From: Actinomycetes bacterium
Lineage (GTDB): Bacteria; Actinomycetota; Acidimicrobiia; Acidimicrobiales; Palsa-688
Direction of reading: 5' to 3'
Length of the DNA: 12,675 nt
Assembly (NCBI GenBank): GCA_021827225.1
Contig: JAKAXG010000052.1
Span: forward strand, 1-12,675
The notes beneath the pieces are model-generated. The model was given only the letters and a program-made list of their open reading frames with translations. It had not been told where the DNA came from and made no database searches. Below, one piece after another: positions 3,796-8,570 of this stretch. Positions within the stretch are counted from its first letter, which is position 1, and the number at the start of each line of letters is the position of its first letter. Position numbers and translations under genes: made by a program.

Positions 3796-4341
3796 ATGAC
3801 GCACATTTTCGCCCACGACACCGAATCGGCCCTGCTGGCTGCGGCCGCGCTCGTCAACACCGACGGCCGCGACGGCGACACGCTCGTCGACGGGGCCGCC
3901 CTGGACGCATTCGTGGCGGAATGGCGCTGGACCGGGAGCCGCCGCAGCGACGCCCCGGAACTGGATTCGGTACGGGCCCTGCGGCCGGTCCTGCGCCAGC
4001 TGTGGGAGCTCGACGACGAGCAGGTGGCGGCGCTGACCAACCGGCTCCTGCGGGACCACGCGGCCCTGCCGCAGCTGGTCCGCCACGACGGCTGGCCCTG
4101 GCACCTCCACGCCACCGATCCGGGGGCGCCCCTGGCCGACCGGATGGCGGTGGAGGCGGCCATGGCCATGGTGGACGTGGTCCGCCAGGGGGAGCGGGGC
4201 CGCATGCGCGTCTGCGCGGCCGAGGACTGCGAGTCGGTGCTGGTGGACCTGTCGCGCAACTCCTCGAAGCGCTACTGCTCGACCACCTGCGCCAACCGGG
4301 TCAACGTGGCGGCCTTCCGGTCCCGGCGGTCGGCCCGCTAG
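3796..4341 (+). CDS. CGNR zinc-finger domain protein, putative regulator
   Basis: The 181-aa protein has the layout of the ABATE/CGNR family, which are putative transcription regulators of actinobacteria and others. An N-terminal domain carries the family's LVNT motif (residues 19-22) and is followed by a helical middle part. A C-terminal CGNR zinc finger has Cys140, Cys145, Cys161 and Cys165. The finger contains the typical DLSRNSSKRYCS stretch; the signature CGNR reads CANR here (165-168). A basic tail follows (RSRRSAR). ATG 3796 is the first start after an in-frame TAG at 3790. It has no clear Shine-Dalgarno and no -10 at 7 nt, unlike many neighbours. The gene is divergent from the EamA transporter and is a plausible regulator of it, by inference from position. 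Confidence 0.9.
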   Translation: MTHIFAHDTESALLAAAALVNTDGRDGDTLVDGAALDAFVAEWRWTGSRRSDAPELDSVRALRPVLRQLWELDDEQVAALTNRLLRDHAALPQLVRHDGWPWHLHATDPGAPLADRMAVEAAMAMVDVVRQGERGRMRVCAAEDCESVLVDLSRNSSKRYCSTTCANRVNVAAFRSRRSAR

Positions 4342-4348
4342 GACCGCC

Positions 4349-4457
4349 CCGGTCGGGGGCCGCTACCCGGTCGGGGGCCGCTACCCCGTCGGGGGCCTGC
4401 TACCCGGTCGGGAGCCGCTACCCGGCCGGGAGCCGCTACCCGGCCGGGAGCTGCTAA
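4349..4457. repeat. Six tandem 18-bp repeats between convergent genes
   Basis: The unit is CCGGTCGGGGGCCGCTAC. Six copies start at 4349, 4367, 4385, 4404, 4422 and 4440. The third has one inserted T (19 bp), and the later ones drift to CCGGCCGGGAGCCGCTAC. A degenerate seventh follows. Unit junctions read GCTACCCGGCCGGGAGC, a hairpin with a bulged A, so the array is a row of possible hairpins. It begins 8 bp after the CGNR stop and its last unit contains the stop of the opposing gene. It may act as a bidirectional terminator and could vary in copy number. Confidence 0.8.
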
Positions 4458-4771
4458 CCGGCCGCCGGCCGGCGGGAGCCCAGCTCGGAGGCGGCGACCA
4501 CGACGGCGGTGACGGCGGCGACCGCCGGCCAGGCGCCGATCCGCTTGGCCAGCGGATGGGACCCGCCCATGGCCCCCACGTAGAGGGCGGTCAGCCCCAG
4601 GGCCGGTCCGGGCCCGAGGGTCTCGAACCACTTGCGGGCGCTCCAGGCCCCGGCCGCGGCGAACACCGCGCCACCGGCCTGGCGGCGACCGGATCGTCGG
4701 GCCACCGCGAAGCCGGCGACCAGGCCACCGGCCGACACCAGAGACGGACGCAGGAGGGCAGATCCAGGCAC
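4454..4771 (-). CDS. Small conserved-looking membrane protein
   Basis: The 105-aa protein has about three or four hydrophobic segments (roughly 11-25, 32-44, 54-70 and 79-95) linked by short basic stretches such as RRSGRRQ. It contains GSHPLAKRIGAWP (70-82), a motif I recall from small uncharacterised actinobacterial membrane proteins. No function can be assigned. The start is GTG 4771, with TAGGGT 6 nt upstream, consistent with a leaderless mRNA. The stop lies inside the last copy of the 18-bp repeat array. It is divergent from the isomerase-like crotonase and its leader ORF, with 45 bp between them. Confidence 0.7.
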   Translation of the reverse strand: MPGSALLRPSLVSAGGLVAGFAVARRSGRRQAGGAVFAAAGAWSARKWFETLGPGPALGLTALYVGAMGGSHPLAKRIGAWPAVAAVTAVVVAASELGSRRPAAG

Positions 4772-4855: not shown

Positions 4856-5613
4856 CCGGCCAGGACGGCGCAGCCGGTCGAGAGCCGGGCGGCGAGGCGG
4901 AGCTGCTCGAGACCGACCACGGCCCGGTCCGGGTGCTGACGCTCAACCGGCCGGACCAGCGAAACGCCTTCACCGTCGGTCTGTACCAGGCCCTGGCCGG
5001 CGCCCTGCGGCGCGCCGATGCCGACGAGAGCGTCAGGGCCGCAGTCGTCACCGGGGCCGGCGCGGCGTTCACCGGCGGCACCGACCTGGGGGAGCTGGCG
5101 GCCATAGCCGCCGGGCAGGCCCCGCCCGGAGCCGACCAGGCCTTCCCCCGGCTGCTCGACGCCCTGGCGGAGATCGACCTGCCCCTGGTCGCCGCGGTCA
5201 ATGGTCCCGGCGTGGGCCTGGGCGCCACCATGTTGACCTTTTTCGATCTGGTCTACATCTCGGACACGGCCCGGTTGAAGACACCGTTCGCGGCCATGGG
5301 GGTGCCGCCCGAGGCGGCCAGCAGCTACCTGTTCCCGGCCCGCATGGGCTGGCAGCCGGCGGCCCGGATGCTGCTGACCGGCGAGTGGCTGACCGCCGGG
5401 GAAGCCGTCGCCACCGGGCTGGCCACCGCGGCGTGCCCGGCCGGATCGGTGCTGTCCGATGCGCTGGCCGCCGCCCAGCGCGTCGCCGCGCACGACCGTT
5501 CCGCCACCCGCACCATCAAATCGCTGATGCGCGCCGGGGAGCGCCCCGCCGCAGCCGAGGCCCGCCGACGGGAGAACCAGGCCTACGCCGCCCTGTTCGG
5601 CCGCTCCAGCTAG
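4852..5613 (+). CDS. Enoyl-CoA delta-isomerase-like crotonase
   Basis: This 253-aa crotonase-fold enzyme probably shifts double bonds in enoyl-CoA (delta3 to delta2), feeding unsaturated acyl chains into beta-oxidation. Family segments in order: [10 protein letters not shown] (31-40), the first oxyanion-hole segment [10 protein letters not shown] (73-82), [15 protein letters not shown] (114-128), and [19 protein letters not shown] (144-162). Glu154 in the last matches the catalytic glutamate of PECI-type isomerases (SPEGCSSY). Both catalytic Glu positions of hydratases are not filled together, which favours isomerase. GTG 4852 is supported by GGGAG 6 nt upstream and by the overlap with the mini-ORF stop. 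The first ~20 residues are a low-complexity extension. A small hairpin follows the stop. Confidence 0.9.
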
Positions 5614-5615
5614 AA

Positions 5616-5632
5616 GGCCACTCAAGGTGGCC
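5616..5632 (+). terminator. Hairpin after the isomerase-like gene
   Basis: GGCCAC, a 5-nt loop, and GTGGCC form a stem-loop 2 nt past the stop codon. More GC-rich palindromic sequence follows. No T-run is present. Confidence 0.4.
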
Positions 5633-5701
5633 GGCCCGGCCTGCCGATCTCTACACCGGGCCGCCCGGCGGAGGTGGCCACCCGAACGGAGAGCATCCCC
5701 C

Positions 5702-7150
5702 ATGCCCACGTACCGAAGCATTCCCACCACAACCCGGCGCCGGGCGTCCCTCCGGGCGGCGCTGGCCGTCGGCGCCGGGGTGCTGGCGGCCGGGAGCCCG
5801 GCCGTCGTCTCCAGCGCCTGGGCCACCACCGGCTCGCCGACGACGCCGACGACGTCGACGACCAACCCGACTGGCCCGTCGGGCTCGTCGGGCTCGTCGG
5901 GCTCGTCGGGCTCGTCGCTGGCCTACAGCCTGCTCACATCCGCGGGGTCCCTGGTCGGATACGGCGGGGCGTTCTCGGCCACGGTCAGCGCCCCGGCGTC
6001 CCCGGTGGTGGGGGTGGCCTCGACACCGGACGGTCACGGTGCCTACGCCGCCGAGGCCGACGGGGCGGTGGTGGCGCTGGGGGACGCCGTCTCCCACGGC
6101 TCCATGGCCGGGACCAGGCTGGACAAACCCATCGTCGGCATCGCCGCCGACGCAGCCACCGGCGGCTACTGGCTGGTGGCGTCCGACGGGGGCATCTTCT
6201 CGTTCGGGGGTGCCCCCTTCTACGGCTCCACCGGGGGCACCCGGCTCGACCAGCCGGTGGTCGGCATGGCCGCCACCCCCGACGGGCACGGCTACTGGCT
6301 GGTGGCCGCCGACGGGGGGGTCTTCTCCTACGGCGACGCCCGGTTCTACGGCTCCACCGGAGGTATCCGGCTCAACCAGCCGGTGGTCGGCATGGCCGCC
6401 ACCCCCGACGGGCACGGCTACTGGATGGTCGCATCCGACGGCGGCATCTTCTCCTACGGTGACGCCCGCTTCTACGGGTCCACCGGGAGCGTGCACCTGG
6501 CGCAGCCCATAATCGCCATGAGCCCGACCGCCGACGGGGCCGGCTACTGGATGGTGGCGGCCGACGGCGGGATCTTCAACTACGGCGACGCCCCGTTCTA
6601 CGGGTCGGGCACCGACCTTCACGCCCGCGTGGTGGGCATGGCCACCGGGGTCGCCAGCGGCTACGCCAACCCGCTGCGGGCGGTCACCGGTCTGCGGTCC
6701 GAGCGGGTCGACGAGGGGGTGGACTACGGGGGGTCCGGGCCGATCTACGCCATCGGCGACGGCGTGGTCACCTCCACGGCAGGCAACTGGCCGGCCGGGA
6801 CCTTCATCTCGTACCGCCTCACCGACGGGCCGGCCGTCGGCAAGATGGTCTACGTCGCCGAGAACGTCACGCCGGCGGTCACGGTCGGGCAGGCGGTGAC
6901 CATGGACACGGTCCTCGGGACGCTCCACGACGCCTATCCCGACATGGAGATCGGCTGGGCCGCCGACAGCTACGGCGACACCATGGCGGCCAAGGCCGGG
7001 CAGTGGAGCTCCTCGGCCGATGCCTCCTCCACCCCGACCGCCTACGGGATCAACTTCAATGACCTGCTGACGTCCCTGGGGGCTCCGTCGGGGGTGGTGG
7101 GAAGCTCCTCCACCTCCGGCGTGGTGGCCGCCGGCTGGCCCAGCTGGTAG
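5702..7150 (+). CDS. Secreted repeat protein with degenerate M23-like domain
   Basis: The 482-aa protein is predicted to be exported. ATG 5702 follows GGAGAG by 8 nt and opens a signal peptide: a basic TTTRRR region, a hydrophobic core and SAWA before the cleavage site near residue 40. A Thr/Pro linker comes next, then four GSS units encoded by the 9-bp repeat GGCTCGTCG (5882-5917). Residues about 99-308 are five 42-residue repeats ([14 protein letters not shown]..., [15 protein letters not shown]), a family common in actinobacterial surface proteins. The C-terminus resembles an M23 (LytM) peptidase, but the usual metal-binding His in HxGxD is Asp (VDEGVDY, about 336-342) and the HxH region reads VYVAENV (about 383-389). 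It may bind rather than cut peptidoglycan. An upstream GTG at 5627 would place the signal peptide internally and is unlikely. Confidence 0.85.
5996..6625 (+). repeat. Five 126-bp tandem coding repeats
   Basis: Units begin at 5996, 6122, 6248, 6374 and 6500, exactly 126 bp (42 codons) apart. Units three and four share an identical 50-bp stretch (6249-6298 and 6375-6424). The first unit is the most diverged. Such identity could allow gain or loss of units by recombination. Confidence 0.85.
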
Positions 7151-7187
7151 TCAGCGGCGTCCCAGCGGGCGGCGTCATCTCGCGCGC

Positions 7188-7356
7188 ACTGTTCAACGGA
7201 TCCGACCCGAGCGATGCGGTGAACAGTTGGGTGCCGTATGTGACGGTCAACTGTTCACCGGAGCGTGCAGCCCGAGCCACTGTGAACAGTTGACCCCTCG
7301 TTACAGGGGGTCAACTGTTCACAGTGCCCGAGGGGGCCTAGCTCTGTGAACAGTTC
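7188..7356. repeat. Array of six alternating 13-bp near-palindromes
   Basis: The motif GTSAACWGTTSAC occurs six times: 7188-7195 (partial, ACTGTTCA), 7219-7229 (GTGAACAGTTG), 7246-7258, 7282-7294, 7310-7322 (three full copies) and 7346-7356 (GTGAACAGTTC). Orientation alternates strictly. Centres lie near 7190, 7225, 7252, 7288, 7316 and 7352, so spacing alternates 35/27/36/28/36 and same-strand copies are 62-64 bp apart. CCCGAG recurs between copies 1-2, 3-4 and 5-6. The array fills most of the 296-bp gap between the secreted protein stop and the mini-ORF at 7447; no convincing gene lies in that gap. Confidence 0.9.
7278..7326. other. Perfect 20-bp inverted repeat inside the array
   Basis: Arms 7278-7297 and 7307-7326 are exact reverse complements with a 9-nt loop (TCGTTACAG). 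No T-run follows on either side, so it is not a typical intrinsic terminator, although it could help end the secreted protein transcript. Confidence 0.85.
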
Positions 7357-7433
7357 GCGGGCGTCGTCCGACCACGATCACCCGGCCGAGCCCGATCGGC
7401 GACAGGAGCGCAGCCAGCGGCGGGGTCGCCATG

Positions 7434-7439
7434 TAGCCT
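7434..7439 (+). promoter_or_regulatory. -10 element for leaderless mini-ORF and DapB-like gene
   Basis: TAGCCT is followed by exactly 7 nt and ATG 7447. The end of the six-motif array lies 78 bp upstream, within reach of activator or repressor action. No clear -35 is seen. Confidence 0.5.
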
Positions 7440-7446
7440 CTGGCCA

Positions 7447-7512
7447 ATGAGCTCCCAGGGGGACGGGGTGCACGACCGGCGCCGGGGTCACCCTGCGGGC
7501 GGGCGACGATGA
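7447..7512 (+). CDS. Leaderless 21-codon mini-ORF coupled to the DapB-like gene
   Basis: The ORF begins MSSQGDGVHDRR and is Arg/Gly-rich. ATG 7447 lies 7 nt after TAGCCT. Its TGA overlaps the next ATG (ATGA, 7509-7512), the classic translational coupling junction. The downstream gene has only a weak GGGCGGG before its ATG, so coupling may supply most initiation. The peptide has no recognisable motif. Confidence 0.5.
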   Translation: MSSQGDGVHDRRRGHPAGGRR

Positions 7513-8570
7513 CCTACCGGGTGGTGCAGTGGGCGACCGGCGGGGTCGGCCGGGCCGCCATCGAAGGGGTGCTGCGCCATCCGGAGCTGGAGCTGGTGGG
7601 GTGCTGGGTGCACAGCGCCGCCAAGTCCGGCCGTGACATCGGGGAGATCGCCGGCACCGGACCGGTCGGGGTGACCGCCACCGACTCGGTGGAAGAGGCG
7701 CTCTCCATCCCGGCCGACTGCGTCATCTACGCCCCGCTCGTCCCCGACGAGGCGCTCGTCGCCCGGATCCTGCGCTCCGGGCGCAACGTCGTCACCCCGG
7801 TCGGCTGGGTCTACCCCGATCCCGGGCGGGCGGAACCGCTGCTCGAGGCGTGCCGGGCCGGGCGGTCCACCCTCCACGGTACGGGCATCCACCCGGGCGG
7901 CATAACCGAACGGTTCCCCCTGATGGTCTCGGCGCTGTCCAATGCCGTGACCTACGTGCGGGCCGAGGAGTTCTCCGACATCCGCACCTACAACGCCCCC
8001 GACGTGGTCCGCCACATCATGGGCTTCGGCGCCACGCCCGAGGAGGCCCTGTCCAGTCCCATGGCCGGGCTGCTAGGCGGCGGCTTCCGCCAGTCGGTGC
8101 GCATGGTGGTGAAGGAGATGGGCTTCCGGGCCGGGGCGGAGATCCGCACGGTGCAGGAGGTGGCGGTGGCCACCGCCCCGATCGACTCTCCGATCGGGGT
8201 CATCGAGGCGGGCCTGGTCGCAGGCCGGCGCTTCCGCTGGGAGGCGGTGATCGACGGCCGGGTGGTGGTGGCGGCCATCGTCAACTGGCTGATGGGCGAA
8301 GCGGACCTGGACCCGGCGTGGGAGTTCGGGCCGGCCGGCGAGCGGTTCGAGATCGAGGTGGTCGGGGACCCGCCGGTGCAGGTGGTGTTCAAGGGGCTTC
8401 AGCCGCCCTCGGTCGAGGAGGGCCTGATCCGCAATCCCGGTGTGGTGGCCACCGCCATGCACTGCGTCAACGCCGTCCCCTACGTGTGCCGGGCCGATCC
8501 GGGGATCAGGACCTATCTCGATCTGCCTCTCGTGGCCGGGCGGGCCGCGCCGGACCTGGCCGGCGCCTAG
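7509..8570 (+). CDS. DapB-like NAD(P)-dependent oxidoreductase
   Basis: The 353-aa protein resembles actinobacterial proteins annotated as dihydrodipicolinate reductase-like or 2,4-diaminopentanoate dehydrogenase-like, not the shorter (~250 aa) true lysine-pathway DapB. An N-terminal Rossmann motif, WATGGVGR (8-15), follows a beta strand, and CVIYAPL (about 71-77) is typical of the next strands. THE GTGIHPGG segment (about 124-131) fits the family's substrate domain. The true substrate is unknown. ATG 7509 overlaps the mini-ORF stop. The gene ends 16 bp from the convergent limonene-epoxide-hydrolase-like gene. The six-motif array upstream is the obvious candidate for its control. Confidence 0.85.
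   Translation: MTYRVVQWATGGVGRAAIEGVLRHPELELVGCWVHSAAKSGRDIGEIAGTGPVGVTATDSVEEALSIPADCVIYAPLVPDEALVARILRSGRNVVTPVGWVYPDPGRAEPLLEACRAGRSTLHGTGIHPGGITERFPLMVSALSNAVTYVRAEEFSDIRTYNAPDVVRHIMGFGATPEEALSSPMAGLLGGGFRQSVRMVVKEMGFRAGAEIRTVQEVAVATAPIDSPIGVIEAGLVAGRRFRWEAVIDGRVVVAAIVNWLMGEADLDPAWEFGPAGERFEIEVVGDPPVQVVFKGLQPPSVEEGLIRNPGVVATAMHCVNAVPYVCRADPGIRTYLDLPLVAGRAAPDLAGA

Follow-up and report, generated by a model that had tools for sequence, protein, structure and literature searches.

A cluster of six alternating octamer sites in an intergenic gap of an Acidimicrobiales-like contig and its possible role as a multi-site operator

Features typical of REP sequences include GTAG or a RAYT gene, and the copy number of BIME or REP elements per genome is usually above 100. 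Among other widely known bacterial elements we considered the DnaA box, LexA, BldD, matS, the PhoP box and CRP; none of them seems to match the array described here. A literature search with the exact motif words, including GTGAACAGTT and GGTGAACAGT, gave no regulator or array of this kind, as judged by the titles among the matches listed. BIMEs are described in PMC2817692 as palindromic units that are regularly spaced and alternate in orientation. For P4- and PICI-like islands, a passage in PMC6092414 places two sets of iterons on either side of an AT-rich region. We analysed an array with similarities to both kinds of element. It lies in a stretch of 12,675 bp, referred to here as the window, on an Acidimicrobiales-like contig.

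The six sites and their genomic setting

The array is located in an intergenic gap of 358 bp (7151-7508) between two plus-strand genes (Table 1), in a G+C-rich setting among metabolic genes. Of the two genes the upstream one is closer: the first core follows 37 nt after its stop codon, and the DapB-like gene begins 150 bp beyond the array. The 8-bp core TGAACAGT occurs in six exact copies of strictly alternating orientation between 7188 and 7354, and zero copies were found in the rest of the 12.7-kb window. None of 200 order-3 Markov controls built from the window contained any 8-mer six times within 175 bp; the maximum was five copies of one 8-mer, reached in three of these controls. A preliminary description of this DNA had reported six copies of alternating orientation, and this was borne out for the region 7184-7358. 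We concluded that the array is real and too regular for chance. Its G+C content of 61% compares to 73% for the window.

The same description had taken the repeated unit to be a 13-bp near-palindrome, which is accurate for half of the sites. The 13-mer GTSAACWGTTSAC is exact in three of the six, but the others deviate by one to three mismatches and the unit common to all six sites is asymmetric. With up to three mismatches allowed, the whole window contains 7 matches to GTSAACWGTTSAC, an unexceptional number that was also reached in 18 of 200 shuffles. GTGAACAGTT is exact in five of the six sites. When the sites were aligned by orientation, a C at position -3 was present in all six besides the eight core letters, and G at -1, T at +8, C at +11, G at -7 and C at +21 were present in five. 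Since this amounts to 6 of 40 columns outside the core, compared to about 2 expected by chance, the extended motif is short. Three of the six sites show a near-dyad, matching in five of the six half-site positions, and the half-sites of sites 1, 2 and 6 are poorly symmetric. The best dyad over eight positions is centred elsewhere for sites 1 and 4, and site 5 ties.

Table 1. Features of the array and the flanking genes (window coordinates).
Feature	Coordinates	Strand	Details
Upstream gene	5627..7150	+	507-aa ORF, internal repeats (126-bp DNA unit)
Entire array of six sites	7184..7358	.	G+C 61% vs 76% in flanks
Site 1	7184..7196	-	core 7188-7195; 13-mer with 3 mismatches
Site 2	7219..7231	+	core 7220-7227; 13-mer with 2 mismatches
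Site 3	7246..7258	-	core 7250-7257; exact 13-mer
Site 4	7282..7294	+	core 7283-7290; exact 13-mer
Site 5	7310..7322	-	core 7314-7321; exact 13-mer
Site 6	7346..7358	+	core 7347-7354; 13-mer with 1 mismatch
Inverted pair, sites 2:3	7212..7265	.	possible hairpin, -29.0 kcal/mol folded alone
Inverted pair, sites 4:5	7278..7326	.	perfect 20-bp arms, 9 nt between; -38.6 kcal/mol folded alone
Outer inverted pair, sites 1:6	7183..7359	.	13-nt arms, 92% complementary
Downstream gene	7509..8570	+	DapB_N and DAP_DH_C domains, 2,4-diaminopentanoate dehydrogenase-like

For the upstream ORF, searches of Pfam and NCBIfam gave no match at E 0.001. The downstream protein scored 93 bits against the 2,4-diaminopentanoate dehydrogenase equivalog, far below the cut-off of 400. 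Among the best 120 of its 5,803 matches, the nearest relatives (P0002-P0004) are 85-87% identical, and relatives from Acidimicrobiales metagenome bins are 82% and 80% identical. The DapB-like gene had been named as the likely target of the array; by its position it is a candidate. The proteins scanned with Pfam included no regulator encoded next to the array, and the regulators among them, a CGNR/ABATE protein and two MarR proteins, are encoded about 3-6 kb away. No phage or replication protein was present among the nine window proteins scanned with Pfam. The window contains no tRNA and no Rfam family at gathering score. A sigma-70-type promoter was not found in 7100-7560; shuffles yielded none either, so in this base composition the scan has little power. 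The preliminary description had called the downstream unit leaderless, and the scan speaks neither for nor against this. The number of rho-independent terminators (hairpin followed by a T-run) in 7100-7560 was zero. A separate repeat, at 4348-4461, comprises about 6.3 tandem copies of the partly palindromic 18-bp unit CCCGGTCGGGAGCCGCTA and sits just after the CGNR/ABATE regulator gene, which ends at 4341.

Spacing, spacer similarity and base pairing

The dyad centres are 35, 27, 36, 28 and 36 bp apart. Two spacer lengths therefore alternate, and same-orientation sites follow each other at 62-64 bp (62 and 64 bp for the minus sites, 63 and 64 bp for the plus sites). The coordinates thus confirm the spacings given in the preliminary description. 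Its further statement that same-orientation sites lie on one face of the helix is correct in that they are near one face, but equally good phasing was found in 11% of random layouts that had the same arrangement with spacers drawn randomly from 20-45 bp. For phasing over all six sites this proportion was 41%. The helical argument is weak, as it counts one period of about six turns four times. The hexamer CCCGAG is present in all three longer spacers, with one copy in each, and these are three of its nine plus-strand copies in 12,675 bp. Its distances to the next core, measured from start to start, are 14, 12 and 20 bp; the recurrence had therefore been seen correctly, but not the matching places that had been ascribed to it.

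Similarity among the long spacers gave p values of 0.024, 0.082 and 0.68 against mononucleotide shuffles. For the short spacers the values were 0.050 in direct comparison and 0.008 when each was compared to the other's reverse complement. By these values the spacers appear weakly related at best. The period of about 63 bp and the single CCCGAG in each longer spacer fit three old copies of one unit, and units 1 and 2 align along their length. The whole regularity could then simply reflect a 63-bp unit that was duplicated in tandem and has no present function, and the length of such a unit accounts for all four similar spacings at once. Neutral drift should, however, have decayed the cores in the same way as the spacers, yet all six cores are letter-perfect. 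This conservation of the sites over the spacers is seen within the array itself. The identity of the cores next to weakly related spacers points to selection on the cores, and we regard duplication without function as improbable.

The main rival explanation, still less likely than a protein site, is that the array is a cluster of extragenic palindromic repeats (of REP/BIME or REPIN type, or else the remains of a miniature element) or forms an RNA structure at the 3' end of the upstream gene. Its hairpins would stop transcription or protect the end of the mRNA. The regular spacing with alternating orientation is BIME-like, the position at a gene end would suit such an element, and so would the resemblance of the short spacers to each other's reverse complement. 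The plus strand of 7178-7370 was predicted to fold with -103.8 kcal/mol, compared to -73.2 +/- 4.3 kcal/mol for shuffles (z -7.1; none of 200 shuffles was as low), and in this fold pair 1:6 encloses pairs 2:3 and 4:5. Since any array of alternating near-palindromes must fold, the z-score carries little information. Folding of the whole 358-nt gap replaced the nested form by pairs 1:2, 3:6 and 4:5, so only pair 4:5 is stable to context. The missing T-run terminator, the missing Rfam match and the weak relationship of the spacers also speak against such an element, as do the single cluster in 12.7 kb and the failure to find the inner pair in any actinobacterial record of the species scan described below.

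Agreement between the flanks of the sites bears on the choice between base pairing and protein recognition. Of the six ways in which the sites can form inverted pairs, the nested one (1:6, 2:3, 4:5) shows the closest agreement of flanks, with 17 contiguous letters and 32 identities compared to 14 and 28 for the runners-up. This lead comes mainly from the 20-bp arms of pair 4:5, which form 20 perfect pairs. Sites 4 and 5 have 12 contiguous flank letters alike, four of them beyond the motif extension. Contiguous flank agreement has a mean of 2.5 letters in the six same-orientation pairs and likewise of 2.5 letters in the eight inverted pairs other than 4:5. TGACC is common to sites 3, 4 and 5, and CTG to sites 4, 5 and 6, a pattern of sharing for which an extended recognition motif is a better fit than base pairing. 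Because flanks are shared equally once pair 4:5 is set aside, we prefer a DNA-binding protein to a hairpin or extragenic-palindrome element as the explanation of the array.

Relatives of the array in genomes, plasmids and viral contigs

The inner pair of sites, written as GTGAACAGTTG-N17-27-CAACTGTTCAC, was searched in 84,980 species genomes. Three stretches matched, from Herbinix, Vibrio and Mangrovibacter, and none was actinobacterial as judged by record title. Since the window would match this pattern and gave no match, its own contig is absent from that collection. In Herbinix the inner pair lies 24 bp ahead of a TetR gene, and in Vibrio 18 bp ahead of a fatty-acid desaturase gene. These two of the three matches are operator-like and count for an operator. 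The Mangrovibacter match (L009) resembles, by eye, the viral satellite contig L001 in its array and neighbouring ORFs, and no primase homologue was found within its 4.7-kb stretch. Beside the TGAACAGT array, L009 (431-2324 and 4535-4638) also carries a reverse transcriptase gene next to a 326-aa ORF, which may be satellite cargo of a retron-like or defence kind. The alternating triple of cores was found in neither the Mangrovibacter nor the Vibrio genome, and a sample of 398 genomes from the phylum to which the Vibrio match belongs did not contain it either.

Viral contigs gave 7 stretches with the pair pattern, none with the outward pair, 6 with a looser form of the outward pair, and 87 with the alternating triple. 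Two scrambled cores used as control octamers gave 1 and 0. A homologue of one 604-aa D5_N/Pox_D5 primase was present in 86 of the 87 triple loci (L094 was negative), with a median distance of 97 bp between primase and array in the 80 triple loci that were measured. In these 80 loci the primases are about 80-100% identical, and being such close relatives, the 86 loci amount to about one case. Six of the pair loci (L001-L006) had a primase homologue and L007 did not; of the six looser outward-pair loci, five had one and L102 had a DUF5906 gene. By analogy with the islands of PMC6092414, we read the viral triple arrays as probable origin iterons of P4- and PICI-like satellites. In L102, a low-GC viral contig, repeats of TGTGAACAGTT and TGTGAACG are located at 4919-5110, right after the DUF5906-domain gene.

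We also inspected 14 further primase loci, hand-picked from 83 plasmid and 315 phage records, six of them chosen as actinobacterial. One locus has 13 copies of TGAACA/TGTTCA, one has 3, and twelve have 0 or 1. The copies of the first lie in the kilobase after the primase gene of a Streptomyces virginiae plasmid with 72% G+C (NZ_CP108186). On this plasmid, CCTGAACA units form two opposed sets around an AT-richer stretch (L109:7177-7455), and the feature table of the plasmid has no entry at these units; judged from this layout, the cluster looks like an iteron origin. Arrays of other words follow the primase gene in further loci, namely GGCCCCGC, CCTGCAAC, AGTTACCG and ATAGTGGC (L108:6895-7306; L115 after 3514; L121 after 3601; L117 after 3898). 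In these 14 hand-picked loci, iterons just downstream of a primase thus seem frequent, with a word that varies. As TGAACA is rare among them, the shared core is a notable coincidence that counts for little as evidence.

The DapB-like protein and the gap were also compared with plasmid and viral sequences. The DapB-like protein had no match in the viral contigs. It matched 21 plasmid records, with at most 37% identity in the 20 listed, which is too distant for a comparison of upstream DNA. A blastn search with the gap retrieved 10 records from plasmids (best E 0.09) and 4 from phages (best E 0.008). Thirteen of these 14 records matched wholly outside the array, and one overlapped its last 8 bases.

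The array could also consist of iterons like those found with P4/D5 primases, either as a remnant of a plasmid or satellite or in the service of one, with the initiator encoded elsewhere. The shared core in alternating triples beside D5-type primases, rarely matched by the control octamers, speaks for this, and so do the 11 CCTGAACA units right after the P4-family primase gene of the Streptomyces virginiae plasmid and the TGTGAACAGTT units after the DUF5906 gene. The viral evidence is, however, about one case, and only one of the 14 further loci has TGAACA-rich repeats downstream while others have different words. Of the features of an iteron origin, the window has the core in both orientations, but neither a primase nor an AT-rich stretch. 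A tblastn search for the primase in the window, which covers all but the last 3.5 kb of the 16,187-base contig, had a best E of 3.9, and the nine Pfam-scanned proteins include no primase. Over any 30 bp of the gap the G+C content is at least 53%, compared to minima of 10-13% in the surroundings of three satellite arrays. No viral contig matched the triple when it was searched with a 7-bp core at the spacing of the window. We consider this origin of the array quite improbable. It is very improbable that a chromosomal six-site array is built on the P4/D5 iteron word of other hosts and persisted in the absence of a primase, either to serve as a control region or as a decoy that titrates an initiator encoded by an actinobacterial plasmid or satellite. 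If the array is an orphaned part of an iteron system, it would testify on the chromosome to a type of satellite or plasmid in this lineage.

A possible multi-site operator and its comparison with known systems

Our preferred reading is a multi-site operator, in which the array would act in cis through six clustered putative sites for one sequence-specific, probably dimeric HTH protein. We give it a probability of about 0.45, so it is tentative. The preliminary description had favoured a cooperative multi-site operator or nucleoprotein scaffold; the identical cores next to weakly related spacers sustain this idea, but the helical argument adds little to it. The array probably arose when a unit of about 63 bp was duplicated long ago, the unit consisting of a minus site, a longer spacer with CCCGAG, a plus site and a shorter spacer. 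One CCCGAG per unit fits this history. After duplication the spacers would have drifted while the cores were retained. Dimers bound two per unit, possibly in a cooperative manner, would form a compact nucleoprotein patch that would control transcription through the 358-bp gap. The patch may repress the downstream DapB-like gene, or it may end or insulate transcription of the upstream gene.

Several results speak against an operator: no regulator gene adjoins the array, no promoter was recognised, symmetry is poor in sites 1, 2 and 6, the extended motif is short, and a second copy did not appear in the species-genome scan. The flanks of pair 4:5 and the rank of the nested pairing as the best of six belong on the same side. 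If the array is an operator, it points to a regulator in a little-studied lineage, and its six-site layout makes looping and cooperativity easy to test in vitro.

Compared to known systems, the array has alternating orientation, two alternating linker lengths and a gene-end position in common with BIME and REPIN clusters, and differs from them in its weakly related spacers. With origin iterons of the P4/PICI type it shares the core TGAACAGT and the presence of both orientations within one cluster. It differs from these in having no primase gene and no AT-rich stretch, in its other spacing and in lying among metabolic genes in G+C-rich DNA. From multi-site operators of dimeric HTH repressors, such as those of the TetR or phage repressor type, the array differs by its six sites, strict alternation and asymmetric core and by having no regulator gene next to it. 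Like these operators, it places several near-palindromes of about 13 bp between two genes, and inverted pairs of GTGAACAGTTG also precede a TetR gene and a desaturase gene.
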